Shown piece after piece: positions 2,443-28,106 of a stretch of DNA of 34,369 nt. Source of the stretch: a bacterium (GTDB lineage Bacteria; Lernaellota; Lernaellaia; JACKCT01); the NCBI GenBank assembly GCA_019912885.1, contig JAIOHV010000229.1, positions 67,846 to 102,214 on the forward strand, read 5' to 3'. Position 1 is the first letter of the stretch, and every line of letters begins with the position of its first letter. The translations under genes were made by a program, and so were the position numbers. The notes below the pieces were generated by a model. It ran no database searches. It was given only the letters and a program-made list of their open reading frames with translations, and was not told the DNA's origin.

Positions 2443-4572
2443 TCAGTCGCTCGCCGTCAACAATCCATATCGCCGCGCAAGCCAGTAGGCGTGCAGGTAA
2501 TCCGCGCTCGCGTCGATCCAGTTGCCCACGCCGCCGCCGCCCACTTCGAGCGGGTTGTTCGTCCACAGGCATGATGAGGAGTTCAGTTCAAAATACGGGC
2601 GCGCGTACAAGGCTTGATGCCGGCCGCCCTGCAGCCAATCGAACTTCCAGAAAAGGGCGGGCAGCGGCGAGGCGCACCAGCCCGGGTCGATGCGATAGTC
2701 CGTGTAGAACCATCCCTTGGGATATGGCACCTCACGCAAACCCCAGATCGCCTCTTCGAAGATTTTGTCGTAGCCGGGTCCGGGATCGCCGAAGGCGTAT
2801 GCGGCGATGGGGAACAACACGTATCGCGTCGCCGGTGTGTTGTGCATTCCGGCCTCCCAGCCGGCGCGGATGAGCGCTCGGCGCGGCGCGTCATCCATCG
2901 CGTCGGCGAGCAGTTGCAGGGTCAACATGCCGACCGTGTTGAGATGCTGGCCGCTCCAGTCGGAGATGCCCCACAGATAGAACATGCCGTTGCCGGCGCG
3001 CACCCAAAGCTCGTAGGCCGGGTTGAACAGGCTGTCGTAACGCTGCCGATACGTGTCGTCGCCCGTCGCGAGATACGCGATACCGCTCATGATGAGCTCG
3101 TTGAACGAGCCGTCCTTGAGCTCCGGATCGTTTTCGACAAGCGCCACCGAGCGCGCGGCAATGCCGTCACGCAGATCGTCGTACGCCGGATCGTCGGGCA
3201 AGGTGAGCAGCGCCATCAGGAATCCGTATTCGATCCCCTTGGCCATGTCGTTGTTCTGCCCGGTGCGCCACTCTAGTCCATCCAGATCGCCGGTGCCCGC
3301 GATCCAGGCCGGGTCGCCCGGAGTTCCGTCCTCGATCGGGCGCACGGTTCGCGCGAAGATCGCAGGGTCATCGGTGATGTCGACGCAGATGAATAGCGCT
3401 GACAGCGCGCGGATCATGTTGTCGAGCGCGTCGGCCTCCCCCGTCGTCTGATAACGAAACGCCTGGCTCGCCAGATACGTGCCCGTCCAGAGCGTGGAGT
3501 CGTATTCATCAAGCCAGTCGGGCGGATCGGAGCCGATCACGTATCGCGCGATCATGCCCGCTTCCATGAGATACTTGTCCGGCGTTTCGGCGTCCATCAT
3601 CGCGGCCTTCTCGCCGAGCGTGTGGCCGAAAGCGCGCGCGCGCAGCATCGTTTCGGTCAGGCTGATGTCGTCCACGATCTTGTTCGCGACGCGAAGTTTC
3701 ATCGGGTTTTCGCGATACCACTCGTAGTCCGTCCGAAAGTGCGGAAAAAAATGGATGCCCGCGTCAAACTCCGGGCGGTCGCGGTAATCGTCGTAAAACG
3801 GCAGCGCGTGATAGTTCGCGAGAAGATCGAAGAGAAGATCGTGCAGCCACGCAGGCGGCGCGGGATGCGAAGGATAAAACGTGTCGTCAAAATCGAAGAC
3901 GGGCGGCTGGCCGTTTTCGCCGGCGCGCGTCAGCGATTCCGTCGCGGACACGAGGCCCGCGGGCGTCGAGGCGTACGTTGCGGTCAGCGCGTTCGCCTTC
4001 GCGGGTGTAAACGCGCCGGTGACGACTTCCTTTTCCTTGTCGTCGTCCGTGCGCGCCAGGGTATCGACGTGCGTCACGAAGTCGTTGCGACGCAACACGA
4101 CCTCGGCCGTTGCGCCCTCGCCGGCAAGCTCCGCCGTGCCTTCCCAACCGGACCACACCTCGTAAGCACCCTCGTCGGCCACGAACGATTCCGCGGCGTA
4201 GTGGACGCTTCGCGCGAAAACGACCTCGCCGTCCTTTTTGTAGAACTCGACCTGCCCTGCGTACGCGCCAAGCGCGTCGTCCGTTCCGGTCACATCCCAC
4301 ACGCCGAGGACGGAATTATCGATCTCCGTGTCGTCGTCGGTATCGTCGTCATCGTCCGCGTCATCGTCGTCGCCGGTATCGTCATCGGACATATCGTCAT
4401 CCGCGTCGTCGTCGCCGGTGTCGTCGTCAGCATCGTCGTCGAAAGCCGTGTCGTCATCGGACGGCACCGCATCATCGTCATCGTCGTCGTCGCCGCACGA
4501 GCAAGAGGCTGCGCCGACGATCGACACAACGCACGCAAGCAAGGTGAACGCGAGACGCCATCGCAAACCCAT
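2443..4572 (-). CDS. Asp-rich exported lipoprotein of unknown function (paralog B)
   Basis: A 709-residue paralog of the downstream 714-residue protein, with the same layout: signal peptide ending at Cys24 (GAASC), Asp-rich linker at residues 28-83, beta-rich domain beginning NSVLGVWDV, and a long helical domain containing WTGTYLAS and TGQNNDMA motifs. The two differ most in the length of the Asp linker and in the last 150 residues. The start is ATG at 4572 with GGGAG seven bases upstream. The sequence upstream of both copies also shares a block around 'gcaaatgcaaagcgg' (near 2424 and 4622), so the duplication seems to have included the 5' region. The gap between the copies is 71 bases. Function unknown; lipid anchoring outside the cytoplasm is inferred from the signal. 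Confidence 0.8.
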   Translation of the reverse strand: MGLRWRLAFTLLACVVSIVGAASCSCGDDDDDDDAVPSDDDTAFDDDADDDTGDDDADDDMSDDDTGDDDDADDDDDTDDDTEIDNSVLGVWDVTGTDDALGAYAGQVEFYKKDGEVVFARSVHYAAESFVADEGAYEVWSGWEGTAELAGEGATAEVVLRRNDFVTHVDTLARTDDDKEKEVVTGAFTPAKANALTATYASTPAGLVSATESLTRAGENGQPPVFDFDDTFYPSHPAPPAWLHDLLFDLLANYHALPFYDDYRDRPEFDAGIHFFPHFRTDYEWYRENPMKLRVANKIVDDISLTETMLRARAFGHTLGEKAAMMDAETPDKYLMEAGMIARYVIGSDPPDWLDEYDSTLWTGTYLASQAFRYQTTGEADALDNMIRALSALFICVDITDDPAIFARTVRPIEDGTPGDPAWIAGTGDLDGLEWRTGQNNDMAKGIEYGFLMALLTLPDDPAYDDLRDGIAARSVALVENDPELKDGSFNELIMSGIAYLATGDDTYRQRYDSLFNPAYELWVRAGNGMFYLWGISDWSGQHLNTVGMLTLQLLADAMDDAPRRALIRAGWEAGMHNTPATRYVLFPIAAYAFGDPGPGYDKIFEEAIWGLREVPYPKGWFYTDYRIDPGWCASPLPALFWKFDWLQGGRHQALYARPYFELNSSSCLWTNNPLEVGGGGVGNWIDASADYLHAYWLARRYGLLTASD

Positions 4573-23540: not shown

Positions 23541-25037
23541 TCAACAGCCGCAGCCTTCCATTTCGCCTTCCGGCGCGCTGTCCTCTTCCGCTGCAGCGCC
23601 GTCCGCGGCGGCATCGTCATCCGCGGCCGCGTCGTCGTCATCTGACGCATCGTCATCGTCCGACAAATCATCGTCATCGTCGGCCGCATCATCGTCACCG
23701 GACGCATCGTCGTCGTCCGCGTCGTCGTCCGCGGTGTCGTCATCGCCCGCGTCATCGTCGTCGTCGTCGCCGGGGATAGGCGGCGAAAAGAGATCCTCGA
23801 AGTCGTACCAGACGTTGTTTTCGGCGGGCAAATTGTCGAAGTCGTTCCAGAACGAGGCGCCGACGCGCATCGCGTCCGGAAGCCAGATCATCGAGTGCAA
23901 CGTGACGGAAACATCGCGCGCGCCCGCGCCGGCCAGCAGGAAGCCCCAGATCGATTCGAGGTTCACCTTCTTCTGGTAGTCGTTGATGACGTTCAGCGAG
24001 TAGTTGTAGCGGAACTGGTGGAAGAACGGCCGCGTCGGGAAAAGCTTGTCTTCCCAGTTGAGCGTCAGGATCTGATTGGGCGCAAGGTTCGGATCATCGC
24101 CCGGCAGTCGCGAGGCGCGCGTGAGGTTGTTGATCTCGAGCGCGGCCGTCGGCGGCTGGAAATTCGCCGCCGGGCCGAACGCCTGGACGATGATCGACGC
24201 GTATTGCCGCACCTCGTCGGCGTAGTAATCGTGGATGTCGAGGATGTTGTTTTCGCCGTCGCCGTTGTGGTCGGCGAGGCTGATCGCGCGCCGCGTCTCG
24301 AACACCCCGATGTCGGGCTTGGGATCGAGGATCATGTCGTCCGGATCGGGGCGAAACGAACCGCGGTTGATCACGATTCCGACGCCGTGCTCGTTCATGC
24401 CCGAAACCATGCCGAGAAATCCTGGAAAGCCGATCGACGCGTAGCGCTGCCGCGCCGGGTCGCCCGGTTCGTACGCGAAGATGACGCCGTGTTCGCCGGC
24501 GTGAAACGGCGAGACGTCGATGAGGTTGTAGTCCGTGTTGTGGCCGATCGCGAGGCCACCCGCGATTTCCGGATCCGCCTCCGTCGCCGTGCCCCAGCCC
24601 GCCCACGTCGAGCACCAAAGCCCCGCCAGCTCGCGCGTGCCGGTCAGCGCGATCAAGTCGCCGAGGTTCAAGTCGCGGCCGATCGACGGCACATCGAGAT
24701 CGACGCCCGAGGCGACCATGCCGTCGTAAACGCCCTGCACCTCCTGGGCGAATTCCGGGTGAAACGAGAGCGTCGCGAGCGACGTGTCGCGGATGAACTC
24801 GTATTCCGGCGCGGTGTAGCGCCCACCGGGATAGAGGTAAACATCCATGTTGTCCAGGATGTCCTGCGCCAGCAGATAGCCGTGCGCATAGCCCATCTCG
24901 TAGTCCGTGCCCCAGATGTGCAGGACGCGCTGGTTGCCAACGGCCCACAGCTCGCCGTTGACCATCTCGGCGGCAAACGCGGGCATGGCCGCGAGGGCGG
25001 CAAGAAGGATCGTTGCGACGATGACTCGACGGTTCAT
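23541..25037 (-). CDS. Exported Ntn-hydrolase-like (C45/acyltransferase-type) protein with Asp-rich C-terminal tail
   Basis: 498 residues. Residues 1-22 are a Sec signal peptide (MNRRVIVATILLAALAAMPA, then FAAE) without a lipobox. The body resembles the C45 peptidase/acyl-CoA:6-APA acyltransferase and phospholipase B-like group: DYEMGYAHGYLLAQDI near the N terminus, a likely nucleophile Cys142 in LAGLWCSTWAGWGTAT, then GGLAIGHNTDYNL (160-172) and GFLGMVSGMNEHGVGIVINR (206-225). Residues 256-267 (DHNGDGENNILD) look like a calcium-binding loop. Residues 424-475 are an Asp/Ala-rich tail, and the protein ends EGCGC. In contrast to the other Asp-rich proteins here, the acidic run is C-terminal. 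The substrate is unknown; in C45 enzymes the Cys becomes N-terminal by self-cleavage, which I cannot verify here. Start ATG at 25037, with GGGAGG upstream. Confidence 0.72.
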   Translation of the reverse strand: MNRRVIVATILLAALAAMPAFAAEMVNGELWAVGNQRVLHIWGTDYEMGYAHGYLLAQDILDNMDVYLYPGGRYTAPEYEFIRDTSLATLSFHPEFAQEVQGVYDGMVASGVDLDVPSIGRDLNLGDLIALTGTRELAGLWCSTWAGWGTATEADPEIAGGLAIGHNTDYNLIDVSPFHAGEHGVIFAYEPGDPARQRYASIGFPGFLGMVSGMNEHGVGIVINRGSFRPDPDDMILDPKPDIGVFETRRAISLADHNGDGENNILDIHDYYADEVRQYASIIVQAFGPAANFQPPTAALEINNLTRASRLPGDDPNLAPNQILTLNWEDKLFPTRPFFHQFRYNYSLNVINDYQKKVNLESIWGFLLAGAGARDVSVTLHSMIWLPDAMRVGASFWNDFDNLPAENNVWYDFEDLFSPPIPGDDDDDDAGDDDTADDDADDDDASGDDDAADDDDDLSDDDDASDDDDAAADDDAAADGAAAEEDSAPEGEMEGCGC

Positions 25038-25254: not shown

Positions 25255-26646
25255 TCACTCGAAATACGGCGTGATATAGAACTGCGTGATGCACATCTCG
25301 TCGTCGAGACCCTCGCCCCAATAGATCGGCCCTTTCGCGCCGCGCGTGTCATACGTGCACGACAGGCGCATCGTGTCGCCGACCTTCGCGGGGATCGCCT
25401 CGCTGTACGTCGCATAACCCTGCCAGTGAAAATCCCATTTGTTCACCTGGAGCAGGCACGTTTCCTCGTCGTTTCGCCACGCTCCGATGCGTTGTTCGGT
25501 CGCGAAAAAATGCATGTGTGGAAACACGCCGTGGAACAGGACGTCGTCGCCGGCCGTCGCGCCCGGGATCGGAAATTCCTTGGTGATCGTCACGCGCTCC
25601 TCGCCCGGCGGCAAATAAAACTGATCGTTGAACGCGAGGAGAATCAGCCCTTCGATCTCCACGGACGGCGCGAGCGTGACATCCACCGTCGTGCGATCCG
25701 GCCCGACGTACCGGCGCAAGTCGTAGTGCACCTGAATGACGACCGGCCGGCCCGCCACGAGGCGCAGGCCCGTGCGCTCGGGGTAGGGTTTCGCGCCGCC
25801 GCCGCCGGCCCACGACATCAGCCAGCGCGCGCCCTGGACGCCCGAATCGCCAAAGCACGCGTAGCCGGGAATCGCATCCTCACGATCCAGCGCTCGCGCT
25901 TTGGCTTCGTGCATCGCGGTGTCGAGCGCGTACACGATAACGTGGTGAACCATGCGCAAATCGCCGGGCTTGATCTGAAACGCGGTGATGAACTGGTCCT
26001 CGGTCAGGGCGGGATCGAGATCGACGATGAAGCACCGGTAGTCATCGTCCACCGACGCGTCCGGCACGAAGTCGATGCCGGGGTCGATCACGTGCGTCAC
26101 CGTGTCGAGCCCCTCGGGCGGATCGGGGAAATCGGGTGCCTTGGCGGGATCGCCCTCGGGCCGGCCGCCGTCCACCCAATCGCCGATCGTTTTGATCTGG
26201 GCGTCGGTCAGCCAGCGCGCGTCTTCGTACGTGTTGCACGCGCCGCTGTTGTCCGGGTTCCACGGCGGCATGGCGCGCGACGCGGTTTGGGATTTGATGA
26301 GCGGCGCGAAACGCACCGCGTCGTCGTACGTCTCGAGCGCCATCGGCGCAAGGCCGCCGGTCTGATGGCAGTCCAGGCAATTGTTGTAAATGATCGGCGC
26401 GACGTCTTCCCAAAAACGCGGCGCGTCGTCCGAAACGTCGTCGTCATCGTCATCGCGGGCGTCGTCATCGCCGGCGTTCGTATCGTCGTCCCCGCCGTCG
26501 GCGGGGTCGTCGTCGGCCGCCGCGGTGTCGTCATCCGCCGCGCCTGTGTCCGGATCGGCGCCGTCGCCCAGATCGCCGCACGCCGCAACGAGCATCGCGC
26601 CCGCGAGCGCGGCGAAAATCGCCATCAGAAAAATTGCGCGCGTCAT
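25255..26646 (-). CDS. Lipoprotein with c-type heme site and PHM-type copper monooxygenase domain (copy 1)
   Basis: 463 residues. Signal peptide with lipobox VAAC (Cys23), Asp-rich linker at about 31-74, then a short cytochrome-like segment with NNCLDCHQ (C90, C93, H94), a CxxCH heme-binding motif. Residues about 200-463 match copper type II ascorbate-dependent monooxygenases (PHM/DBH): MVHHVIVY (H234, H235) and IQVHYD (H307) for the first copper site, FPHMHF (H377, H379) and DEMC (M451) for the second. All six copper ligands expected from PHM are present. Substrate unknown; the family hydroxylates C-H bonds using O2 and two electrons, which the heme might deliver. The start ATG at 26646 overlaps the stop of the upstream paralog (ATGA). 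A longer in-frame extension is only a shadow of that paralog. Confidence 0.85.
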   Translation of the reverse strand: MTRAIFLMAIFAALAGAMLVAACGDLGDGADPDTGAADDDTAAADDDPADGGDDDTNAGDDDARDDDDDDVSDDAPRFWEDVAPIIYNNCLDCHQTGGLAPMALETYDDAVRFAPLIKSQTASRAMPPWNPDNSGACNTYEDARWLTDAQIKTIGDWVDGGRPEGDPAKAPDFPDPPEGLDTVTHVIDPGIDFVPDASVDDDYRCFIVDLDPALTEDQFITAFQIKPGDLRMVHHVIVYALDTAMHEAKARALDREDAIPGYACFGDSGVQGARWLMSWAGGGGAKPYPERTGLRLVAGRPVVIQVHYDLRRYVGPDRTTVDVTLAPSVEIEGLILLAFNDQFYLPPGEERVTITKEFPIPGATAGDDVLFHGVFPHMHFFATEQRIGAWRNDEETCLLQVNKWDFHWQGYATYSEAIPAKVGDTMRLSCTYDTRGAKGPIYWGEGLDDEMCITQFYITPYFE

Positions 26647-28106
26647 GGCGCAACCCATCCCGGCGCGATGTAGAAAAGGTTGTTGCACATCTCGTCCGCG
26701 GTCCCCTCGCCGAATGTCGTGACCACCTCGCGATCCGTGGTGTCGTATCCGCAACTCACGCGGAAGATGTCGCCGCCCACCACATGCAGCGGCGTTTCGT
26801 AGAGATTGAAATTCTGCCAGTGGAAGTCCCAGTCGAATACATCCAGAACGCACTGCGTTTCCTCGCCCTCGCGATCGAACTCGACGTGCATGATCTTGCC
26901 AGCCTCGTGCATGTGCGGCGCGACGCCCCACAAGGTGGCGTCGGACAGTTCGGGCGGGATGACGAACTCGGAGGTTTCGACGATGAGCGGTTCTCCCGCC
27001 GGCAAAAAGATGCTCCAGTCCACGAATCGGTAGAAAAACGCGGGGTTATCGACGCCCGGCCGAAGTTTCATGTCGATCGCCGTGTTATCCGTCGTGACGC
27101 CGTTGATGAGGTTGTAATGCACCTGCATCACAAGCTTGCGCCCCGCGAGCATCTTGATGCCCGTGCCTTCGGGGAAATACGTCGGCCCGCTGCCGGGTCC
27201 CCAGCCCATGATGTAACTTGCGCCCGTCGCGCCCGGGCCGCCGTAGCAGGTGTATCCGGGGCGTTCGTCCCCGGCGTCGAGCGCGGCCACCTGCGCCTCG
27301 GCGGCCGCGTCCGGCAGCGCGAACACGACAACGTGATGCACCATCGTTTTTGCGCCGGGGCGGATGTCGAAGGCGACGAGATACGCGTCCGCCGACAGAT
27401 CGGGGTTCATGACGAAGCAACGGTTGTCGTCGAGATCCTCGTCGTCGGGCTCGTAATCGACGCCCATGTTCACGCTTGCCGTCACCTCGTCAAGGCCGGG
27501 TGGCGGATCGGGAATCGCGGGCGCCATCGCCGCGTCGCCCTCGAGCCGGTCCCCGCGCGCCCACGCGACGATCGTTTCGATCTCGTCTTCGGTCAGCCAG
27601 CGCGCGTCCTTGTAGGTATTGCAGTCGCCGCTGTTGTCGACGTTCCACGGCGGCATGTTTCGCTCTTCCACTTCGTTCGCGATGAGCGGCGCGAAACGCA
27701 CGGCGTCGTCGTAGTCCTTCAACTCCATCGGCGCGATGCCGCCTTCCGTGTGACAGGACAGGCAATTCTTGTACACGATCGGCGCGACGTCTTCCCAGAA
27801 CAGCGGGCCGGCGGAGTCATCGTCGTCATCCATGTCGTCATCATCGACGCCGGCGGTGTCGTCATCGTCGATGACGGCGTCGTCGTCCGCCGCGTCGTCG
27901 TCGCTACCGGAGGGCGGTGTCCAATCGACCGCCTCGCGGCCCTCGGATACGCGCATGTCGCCGCACGAAACCACACCGGCGAACATGAACGCGGCGCCGA
28001 TCGCCAGAAGGAAAGCGAGCGCCTTGCCACTCGACGCGCCTGGCGCCGGGCGGCCTACCTCGTGATGAACGCGAAAGATCGTCGCACCCTCCGATATCGA
28101 AGCCAA
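26643..28106 (-). CDS. Lipoprotein with c-type heme site and PHM-type copper monooxygenase domain (copy 2)
   Basis: 487 residues if read from TTG at 28106. Layout as in copy 1: lipobox VVSC (Cys48 in this numbering), Asp-rich linker at about 69-97, heme motif KNCLSCHT (C115, C118, H119), then PHM-type ligands H257-H258 (MVHHVV), H330 (MQVHYN), H398 and H400 (PHMH) and M473 (DEMC). The start is uncertain: there is no in-frame ATG or GTG that leaves a complete signal peptide. TTG at 28106 gives a long 28-residue n-region with a weak Shine-Dalgarno, whereas a strong GGAGGG (28092-28087) points to an ATC codon at 28079. The two paralogs overlap by four bases and are probably translated together. 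They are diverged duplicates sharing the same order of motifs throughout. Confidence 0.83.
   Translation of the reverse strand: MASISEGATIFRVHHEVGRPAPGASSGKALAFLLAIGAAFMFAGVVSCGDMRVSEGREAVDWTPPSGSDDDAADDDAVIDDDDTAGVDDDDMDDDDDSAGPLFWEDVAPIVYKNCLSCHTEGGIAPMELKDYDDAVRFAPLIANEVEERNMPPWNVDNSGDCNTYKDARWLTEDEIETIVAWARGDRLEGDAAMAPAIPDPPPGLDEVTASVNMGVDYEPDDEDLDDNRCFVMNPDLSADAYLVAFDIRPGAKTMVHHVVVFALPDAAAEAQVAALDAGDERPGYTCYGGPGATGASYIMGWGPGSGPTYFPEGTGIKMLAGRKLVMQVHYNLINGVTTDNTAIDMKLRPGVDNPAFFYRFVDWSIFLPAGEPLIVETSEFVIPPELSDATLWGVAPHMHEAGKIMHVEFDREGEETQCVLDVFDWDFHWQNFNLYETPLHVVGGDIFRVSCGYDTTDREVVTTFGEGTADEMCNNLFYIAPGWVAP

Follow-up and report, generated by a model that had tools for sequence, protein, structure and literature searches.

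Tandem lipoproteins of a Lernaellota bacterium that combine a c-type cytochrome domain with a PHM-type dicopper monooxygenase core

Two overlapping lipoprotein genes

The window analyzed here is the whole stretch of 34,369 nucleotides taken from contig JAIOHV010000229.1 of a bacterium of the Lernaellota (assembly GCA_019912885.1; positions 67,846 to 102,214). Both open reading frames described by the original prediction were found on its minus strand, and the overlap of four bases that it had reported between them is present as an ATGA:

26643-28106, minus strand: upstream gene P0002, encoding a cytochrome c / PHM-type lipoprotein (TTG start, uncertain)
25255-26646, minus strand: downstream gene P0001, encoding a cytochrome c / PHM-type lipoprotein (ATG start)
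26643-26646, minus strand: overlap of the two reading frames, ATGA, four bases, read from the sequence

It seems likely that translation of the two genes is coupled, as suggested by this four-base overlap. Their products are 48% identical across the shared domains and are built from the same parts in the same order, beginning with a lipobox-bearing signal that is followed by an Asp-rich linker, a CxxCH domain, and a PHM-like core. The co-occurrence of lipid anchor and CxxCH on one chain that had been proposed for both paralogs is borne out by their lipoboxes (VVSC in P0002 and VAAC in P0001) and heme-binding motifs (CLSCH and CLDCH, respectively). The N-terminal parts of the two chains are located as follows:

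27957-27974, minus strand: lipobox of P0002, VVSC-GD
27810-27956, minus strand: Asp-rich linker of P0002 (approximate)
26572-26589, minus strand: lipobox of P0001, VAAC-GD
26425-26571, minus strand: Asp-rich linker of P0001 (approximate)

We regard it as virtually certain that P0001 and P0002 each carry a heme domain and a complete PHM-type dicopper core on a single lipid-anchored chain.

Copper core, heme domain, and their packing

The dicopper core and its metal ligands were assigned in both genes:

26646-27497, minus strand: PHM-type dicopper monooxygenase core of P0002 (approximate bounds)
27333-27338, minus strand: His258-His259 of P0002, CuH ligands (PHM H107-H108)
27117-27119, minus strand: His331 of P0002, CuH ligand (PHM H172)
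26907-26915, minus strand: His399-x-His401 of P0002, CuM ligands (PHM H242, H244)
26688-26690, minus strand: Met474 of P0002, CuM ligand (PHM M314)
25258-26112, minus strand: PHM-type dicopper monooxygenase core of P0001 (approximate bounds)
25942-25947, minus strand: His239-His240 of P0001, CuH ligands
25726-25728, minus strand: His312 of P0001, CuH ligand
25510-25518, minus strand: His382-x-His384 of P0001, CuM ligands
25294-25296, minus strand: Met456 of P0001, CuM ligand

All six copper ligands of rat PHM (H107, H108, H172, H242, H244, and M314) are aligned with identical residues in both window proteins, in agreement with what had been claimed for the two paralogs. The Pfam model Cu2_monoox_C matches the two window proteins clearly (E = 1.2e-10 and 8.3e-14, or 41.5 and 51.8 bits versus a cut-off of 23), and Cu2_monooxygen scores 29.6 and 30.1 bits versus a cut-off of 30. 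PHM is found in the PDB at 1.3e-8 by single-sequence search and at 6e-29 with a profile of the family, and no solved structures other than those of PHM and DBH are convincing relatives at the sequence level. These matches go far beyond what chance would give.

The region between linker and copper core has the properties of a c-type cytochrome:

27510-27809, minus strand: cytochrome c-type domain of P0002 (approximate bounds)
27750-27764, minus strand: heme-binding motif of P0002, CLSCH
27645-27656, minus strand: MPPW motif of P0002, with Met152 as probable sixth heme ligand
26125-26424, minus strand: cytochrome c-type domain of P0001 (approximate bounds)
26365-26379, minus strand: heme-binding motif of P0001, CLDCH
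26260-26271, minus strand: MPPW motif of P0001, with Met131 as probable sixth heme ligand

This Met lies 32 residues downstream of the heme His in both proteins, a spacing shared by 66 of the 78 rows of an alignment of fused relatives and extended to 40-45 residues in the others, all rows having been selected for the Met. At the level of Pfam models, Cytochrome_CBB3 reaches the two window proteins at E-values of 0.006 and 0.002, under the Pfam cut-off, and is found at E <= 0.01 in 42 of the 78 relatives (Haem_bd in 7). Matches of the heme domain in the PDB are mostly c-type cytochromes, all of them weak. In both AlphaFold2 models, helices at positions 4-15, 33-38, 40-48, and 74-85 surround CxxCH and Met at high pLDDT, and the succession of a helix, CxxCH, two helices, the Met loop, and another helix follows the class I cytochrome pattern. 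Compared to class I cytochromes c themselves (cytochrome c6, CcoP-like proteins, and Cytochrome_CBB3), which end in a C-terminal helix after the Met loop in the same way, the window domain gives weak sequence matches and differs in being fused and in its conserved MPPW motif. The original prediction had named buried CxxCH disulfides as an observation against it; as far as sequences and models allow a judgment, they point the other way, with CxxCH placed in a helical, cytochrome-like domain whose Met ligand is invariant. A maturation system is also present in the genome, with matches to Cytochrom_C_asm at 8.5e-35 and 5.4e-31 for cytochrome c assembly proteins.

Models of both two-domain chains are of high confidence, with a mean pLDDT of 94.8 and pTM of 0.91 for P0002 (AlphaFold2, 78 relatives) and a mean pLDDT of 94.4 and pTM of 0.90 for P0001 (AlphaFold2, 66 relatives). 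The best Foldseek matches are PHM for the P0002 model (E 4e-18) and DBH for the P0001 model (E 1.9e-16), at a probability of 1.00 and with a wide lead of PHM and DBH over all others; rather than departing from the PHM arrangement, as would have spoken against the original prediction, the copper ligands align with those of PHM in a PHM-like fold. By TM-score, the P0001 model is best superposed on 6ALA (TM 0.76, rmsd 2.8 Å), and it is closer to chain A than to chain B of DBH. Both 6ALA and DBH chain A are closed forms with their copper sites brought together (PMC6123673, PMC4846438), and the better fit to them may be a quirk of metal-free prediction. The heme domain is likely to be held in a defined packing against the copper core in these models because such pTM values are hard to obtain with a floating domain.

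Columns that show no variation among the 78 fused relatives are those of the heme residues C, C, H, and M, the copper ligands H, H, H, H, H, and M, and P53, W83, Q332, and E373, the last two (alignment numbering) being the equivalents of PHM Q272 and E313. These rows had been picked for CxxCH and Met, and the invariance of the heme columns is thus a result of selection, with the copper part alone unbiased. The distance from the heme His to the first copper ligand is 134-154 residues in the same alignment. One pair of Cys residues, of which one lies in each domain, attracted our attention:

27621-27623, minus strand: Cys163 of P0002 in the loop after the heme Met, co-occurring with Cys420
26850-26852, minus strand: Cys420 of P0002, a CuM-domain residue proposed to pair with Cys163 in a disulfide
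26236-26238, minus strand: Cys142 of P0001, equivalent of P0002 Cys163
25456-25458, minus strand: Cys402 of P0001, equivalent of P0002 Cys420

In alignment numbering (Cys63 of the heme domain and Cys320 of the CuM domain), both residues are present in 26 of 78 rows and both absent in 52, with no row carrying either one singly (0/0), and every other Cys pair tested shows exceptions. This co-occurrence is suggestive of an inter-domain disulfide that would clamp the heme domain onto the CuM domain; the evidence stays suggestive because the pattern goes back to 2-3 changes on the tree, a number that does not allow statistics.

Distribution of the fusion and origin of the two copies

The genome encodes a total of four cytochrome c/PHM proteins with an identical order of parts, and CxxCH is present in all of them. 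Scanning of further genomes showed that the fusion also exists in Nannocystis (Myxococcota), Acidobacteria, Verrucomicrobia, and Flavilitoribacter (Bacteroidota). The fusion profile has matches in genomes of the Acidobacteria phylum (28 of 149), the Bacteroidota phylum (23 of 148), and the Verrucomicrobia phylum (6 of 145), some of these matches being copper core only, and matches per genome go up to about 15. The copper domain is present in 98 of 189 Myxococcota genomes. All 100 of the 100 recovered relatives have the six copper ligands intact. Among 39 Myxococcota loci chosen by the copper domain alone, 30 also encode CxxCH and Met, 6 are complete without them, and 3 are broken or cut; the heme domain is thus present in 30 of the 36 complete proteins. 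As the six complete homologues without it show, the fold does not strictly require heme. The P0001/P0002 pair is therefore no unique construct, as is apparent from these counts, but an instance of a large bacterial family. A search of the accessible literature found no description of a bacterial cytochrome c/PHM fusion, which is probably already visible in domain databases since the domain models exist.

Several members of the family deviate from the common layout. The Myxococcota copper cores without a heme domain (L024, L025, L026, L040, L042, and L047) include the three top scores of the Pfam model. Inspection by eye revealed additional parts flanking the heme-copper unit in other homologues, namely thioredoxin/redoxin-like N-terminal domains (L087, L097, L062, L105, and L014), TPR-like C-terminal repeats (L006, L078, L086, and L091), and type IX-secretion-like C-terminal signals (L010 and L058). 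A homologue in a related genome (G002:C1:271273-272437; L011, L107, and L111) is broken into two frames where the heme domain meets the copper domain, be it by an assembly error, as a pseudogene, or by a frameshift.

P0001 and P0002 are each other's nearest relatives in the tree and, for this reason, are best described by their sequences as a local tandem duplication of one gene. The original prediction had suggested that the two copies could form a heterodimer or act on different substrates, an idea for which we found no positive evidence. That they are heterodimer halves with divided labor would fit with the coupled translation suggested by the ATGA overlap and with the recurrence of tandem same-strand pairs in Acidobacteriota (e.g., G354:C5, G453:C1, and G480:C6), but seems improbable given that both copies are complete, that they arose by local duplication, and that the genome's other two copies stand alone. 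Furthermore, the window holds an unrelated pair of tandem lipoproteins at 227-2371 and 2443-4572 (both minus strand) that are 75% identical over 627 residues and have an Asp-rich linker like that of P0001 and P0002; neither has a Pfam match.

Electron supply, substrate, and gene neighbors

PHM and DBH, whose two-copper core serves animals in the production of peptide hormones and noradrenaline, are textbook ascorbate enzymes. Enzymes of the PHM type need two single electrons that are taken up at CuH and spent at CuM, with ascorbate as the donor in animals. For P0001 and P0002, the best reading is that the heme probably serves as electron donor to the dicopper core in place of ascorbate. The two proteins would then be exported, lipid-anchored dicopper monooxygenases of the PHM/DBH type with a covalent c-heme domain, whose heme would be attached by the genome's own cytochrome c maturation system. 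The heme domain would dock on the copper core, a docking held in this subfamily by the putative disulfide to the CuM domain, and electrons from a respiratory or periplasmic pool would pass singly from heme to CuH and on to CuM, where O2 would be activated for hydroxylation of a C-H bond of a small substrate. The step from heme to copper is chemically reasonable because the copper of bacterial LPMOs has been shown to be reduced by a Cellvibrio c-type cytochrome domain in place of ascorbate (PMC8981238). This domain, CjX183 of Cellvibrio japonicus Cbp2D, is a c-type electron source for a copper monooxygenase, as the heme domain of the window proteins would be, but LPMOs have a different fold with one copper, and CjX183 serves a separate protein rather than a core on the same chain (PMC8981238). 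How electrons are delivered to the two distant coppers of PHM and DBH and how they cross between them is still debated (PMC4846438, PMC6123673). Of the earlier suggestion that heme is a substitute donor, the joining of a heme domain to a PHM core is thus well supported, and the flow of electrons from one to the other is what we infer.

An opposite direction of flow has been considered as well, in which the copper core oxidizes a substrate and the c-heme accepts the electrons for their exit to the respiratory chain, making the protein a dehydrogenase and not a monooxygenase. Lipid-anchored c-type domains commonly pass electrons into respiratory chains, and a fixed fusion is compatible with both directions. 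However, conservation is strict at both the O2-activating mononuclear CuM site (H, H, M) and CuH, and extends to the equivalents of PHM Q272 and E313, and we know of no dehydrogenase in the PHM/DBH fold, all of which makes an acceptor role quite unlikely. It is also rather unlikely that the heme domain is a sensor of oxygen, NO, or redox state or a structural module, with ascorbate-like small reductants still acting as donors. Bacterial homologues with a PHM core alone do exist, and the core of animal DBH, the same dicopper core as in the window proteins, is likewise adjoined at its N-terminal side by an extra domain, the heme-free DOMON domain with a cytochrome-like fold, the same as that of the cytochrome domain of cellobiose dehydrogenase (PMC4846438). 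Against such a role, the invariant Met suggests a six-coordinate electron-transfer heme, and the heme domain is kept at a nearly fixed spacing from the first copper ligands. The DOMON domain differs in fold from the heme domain of the window proteins, and DBH, with ascorbate as its donor, dimerizes through a C-terminal domain that they lack: Pfam found neither DOMON nor C-terminal dimerization domains in P0001 and P0002, and the chains end at the core.

The nearest solved sequence relatives include PHM, which would speak for amidation of peptides, as carried out by animal PAM, as the activity of P0001 and P0002. They share with PHM the fold, both copper sites, the equivalents of Q272 and E313, and two of five disulfides (C81-C126 and C293-C315), but are bacterial lipoproteins with an N-terminal c-type heme domain and about 20% identity that lack Arg240, Tyr318, the lyase domain, and the three other PHM disulfides. 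Arg240 and Tyr318, which we take to be the peptide-binding residues of PHM, are replaced by Ala or Phe and by Leu or Gln, respectively, in the two window proteins, and no lyase (PAL) domain was detected on either chain by Pfam. Because the peptide-binding Arg240 is absent, peptide amidation is highly improbable, and we rejected it on account of these missing substrate residues.

If heme is indeed the donor to the copper core, a one-electron heme on a PHM-type chain would make the electron step directly measurable by optical spectroscopy, a function class could be given to widespread, unstudied exported proteins of bacteria, and a self-contained catalyst of C-H hydroxylation might be at hand. 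More tentatively, and with some doubt on our part, bacteria might hold a large self-sufficient PHM-type family whose electron donor to CuH is a tethered cytochrome c and not ascorbate, and the ascorbate-dependent enzymes of animals would derive from a core that is heme-wired elsewhere.

A possible functional neighbor of the gene pair lies 217 bases downstream:

23541-25037, minus strand: secreted C45-like (Ntn) acyltransferase/hydrolase with an Asp-rich GCGC tail

A gene for a secreted PHB-depolymerase/esterase-like protein follows the cytochrome-PHM gene at three other loci (L120:11612-13729, L121:782-2764, and L122:5278-7215), beside both single-copy relatives in the genome and one in a related genome. 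Faintly, these hydrolase and esterase neighbors may point to some exported or environmental compound that is broken down in two steps. We decided against assigning a function from the neighbors, because genes of ordinary biosynthesis (branched-chain amino acid, tryptophan-type, and folate genes) are found in the wider window.

The C45-like hydrolase and the three esterase-like proteins, all secreted, end in an Asp-rich stretch with GCGC (or GCCGC) at the stop. This tail has no matching sorting-signal model in NCBIfam and, judged by its sequence, may be an undescribed C-terminal signal for sorting or lipidation. Counts for the GCGC-stop pattern are 52 in the genome versus 9 in a backward control and, for its Asp-preceded form, 140 versus 0 (overlapping counts), and the pattern is present in 7 of 7 genomes of the phylum.
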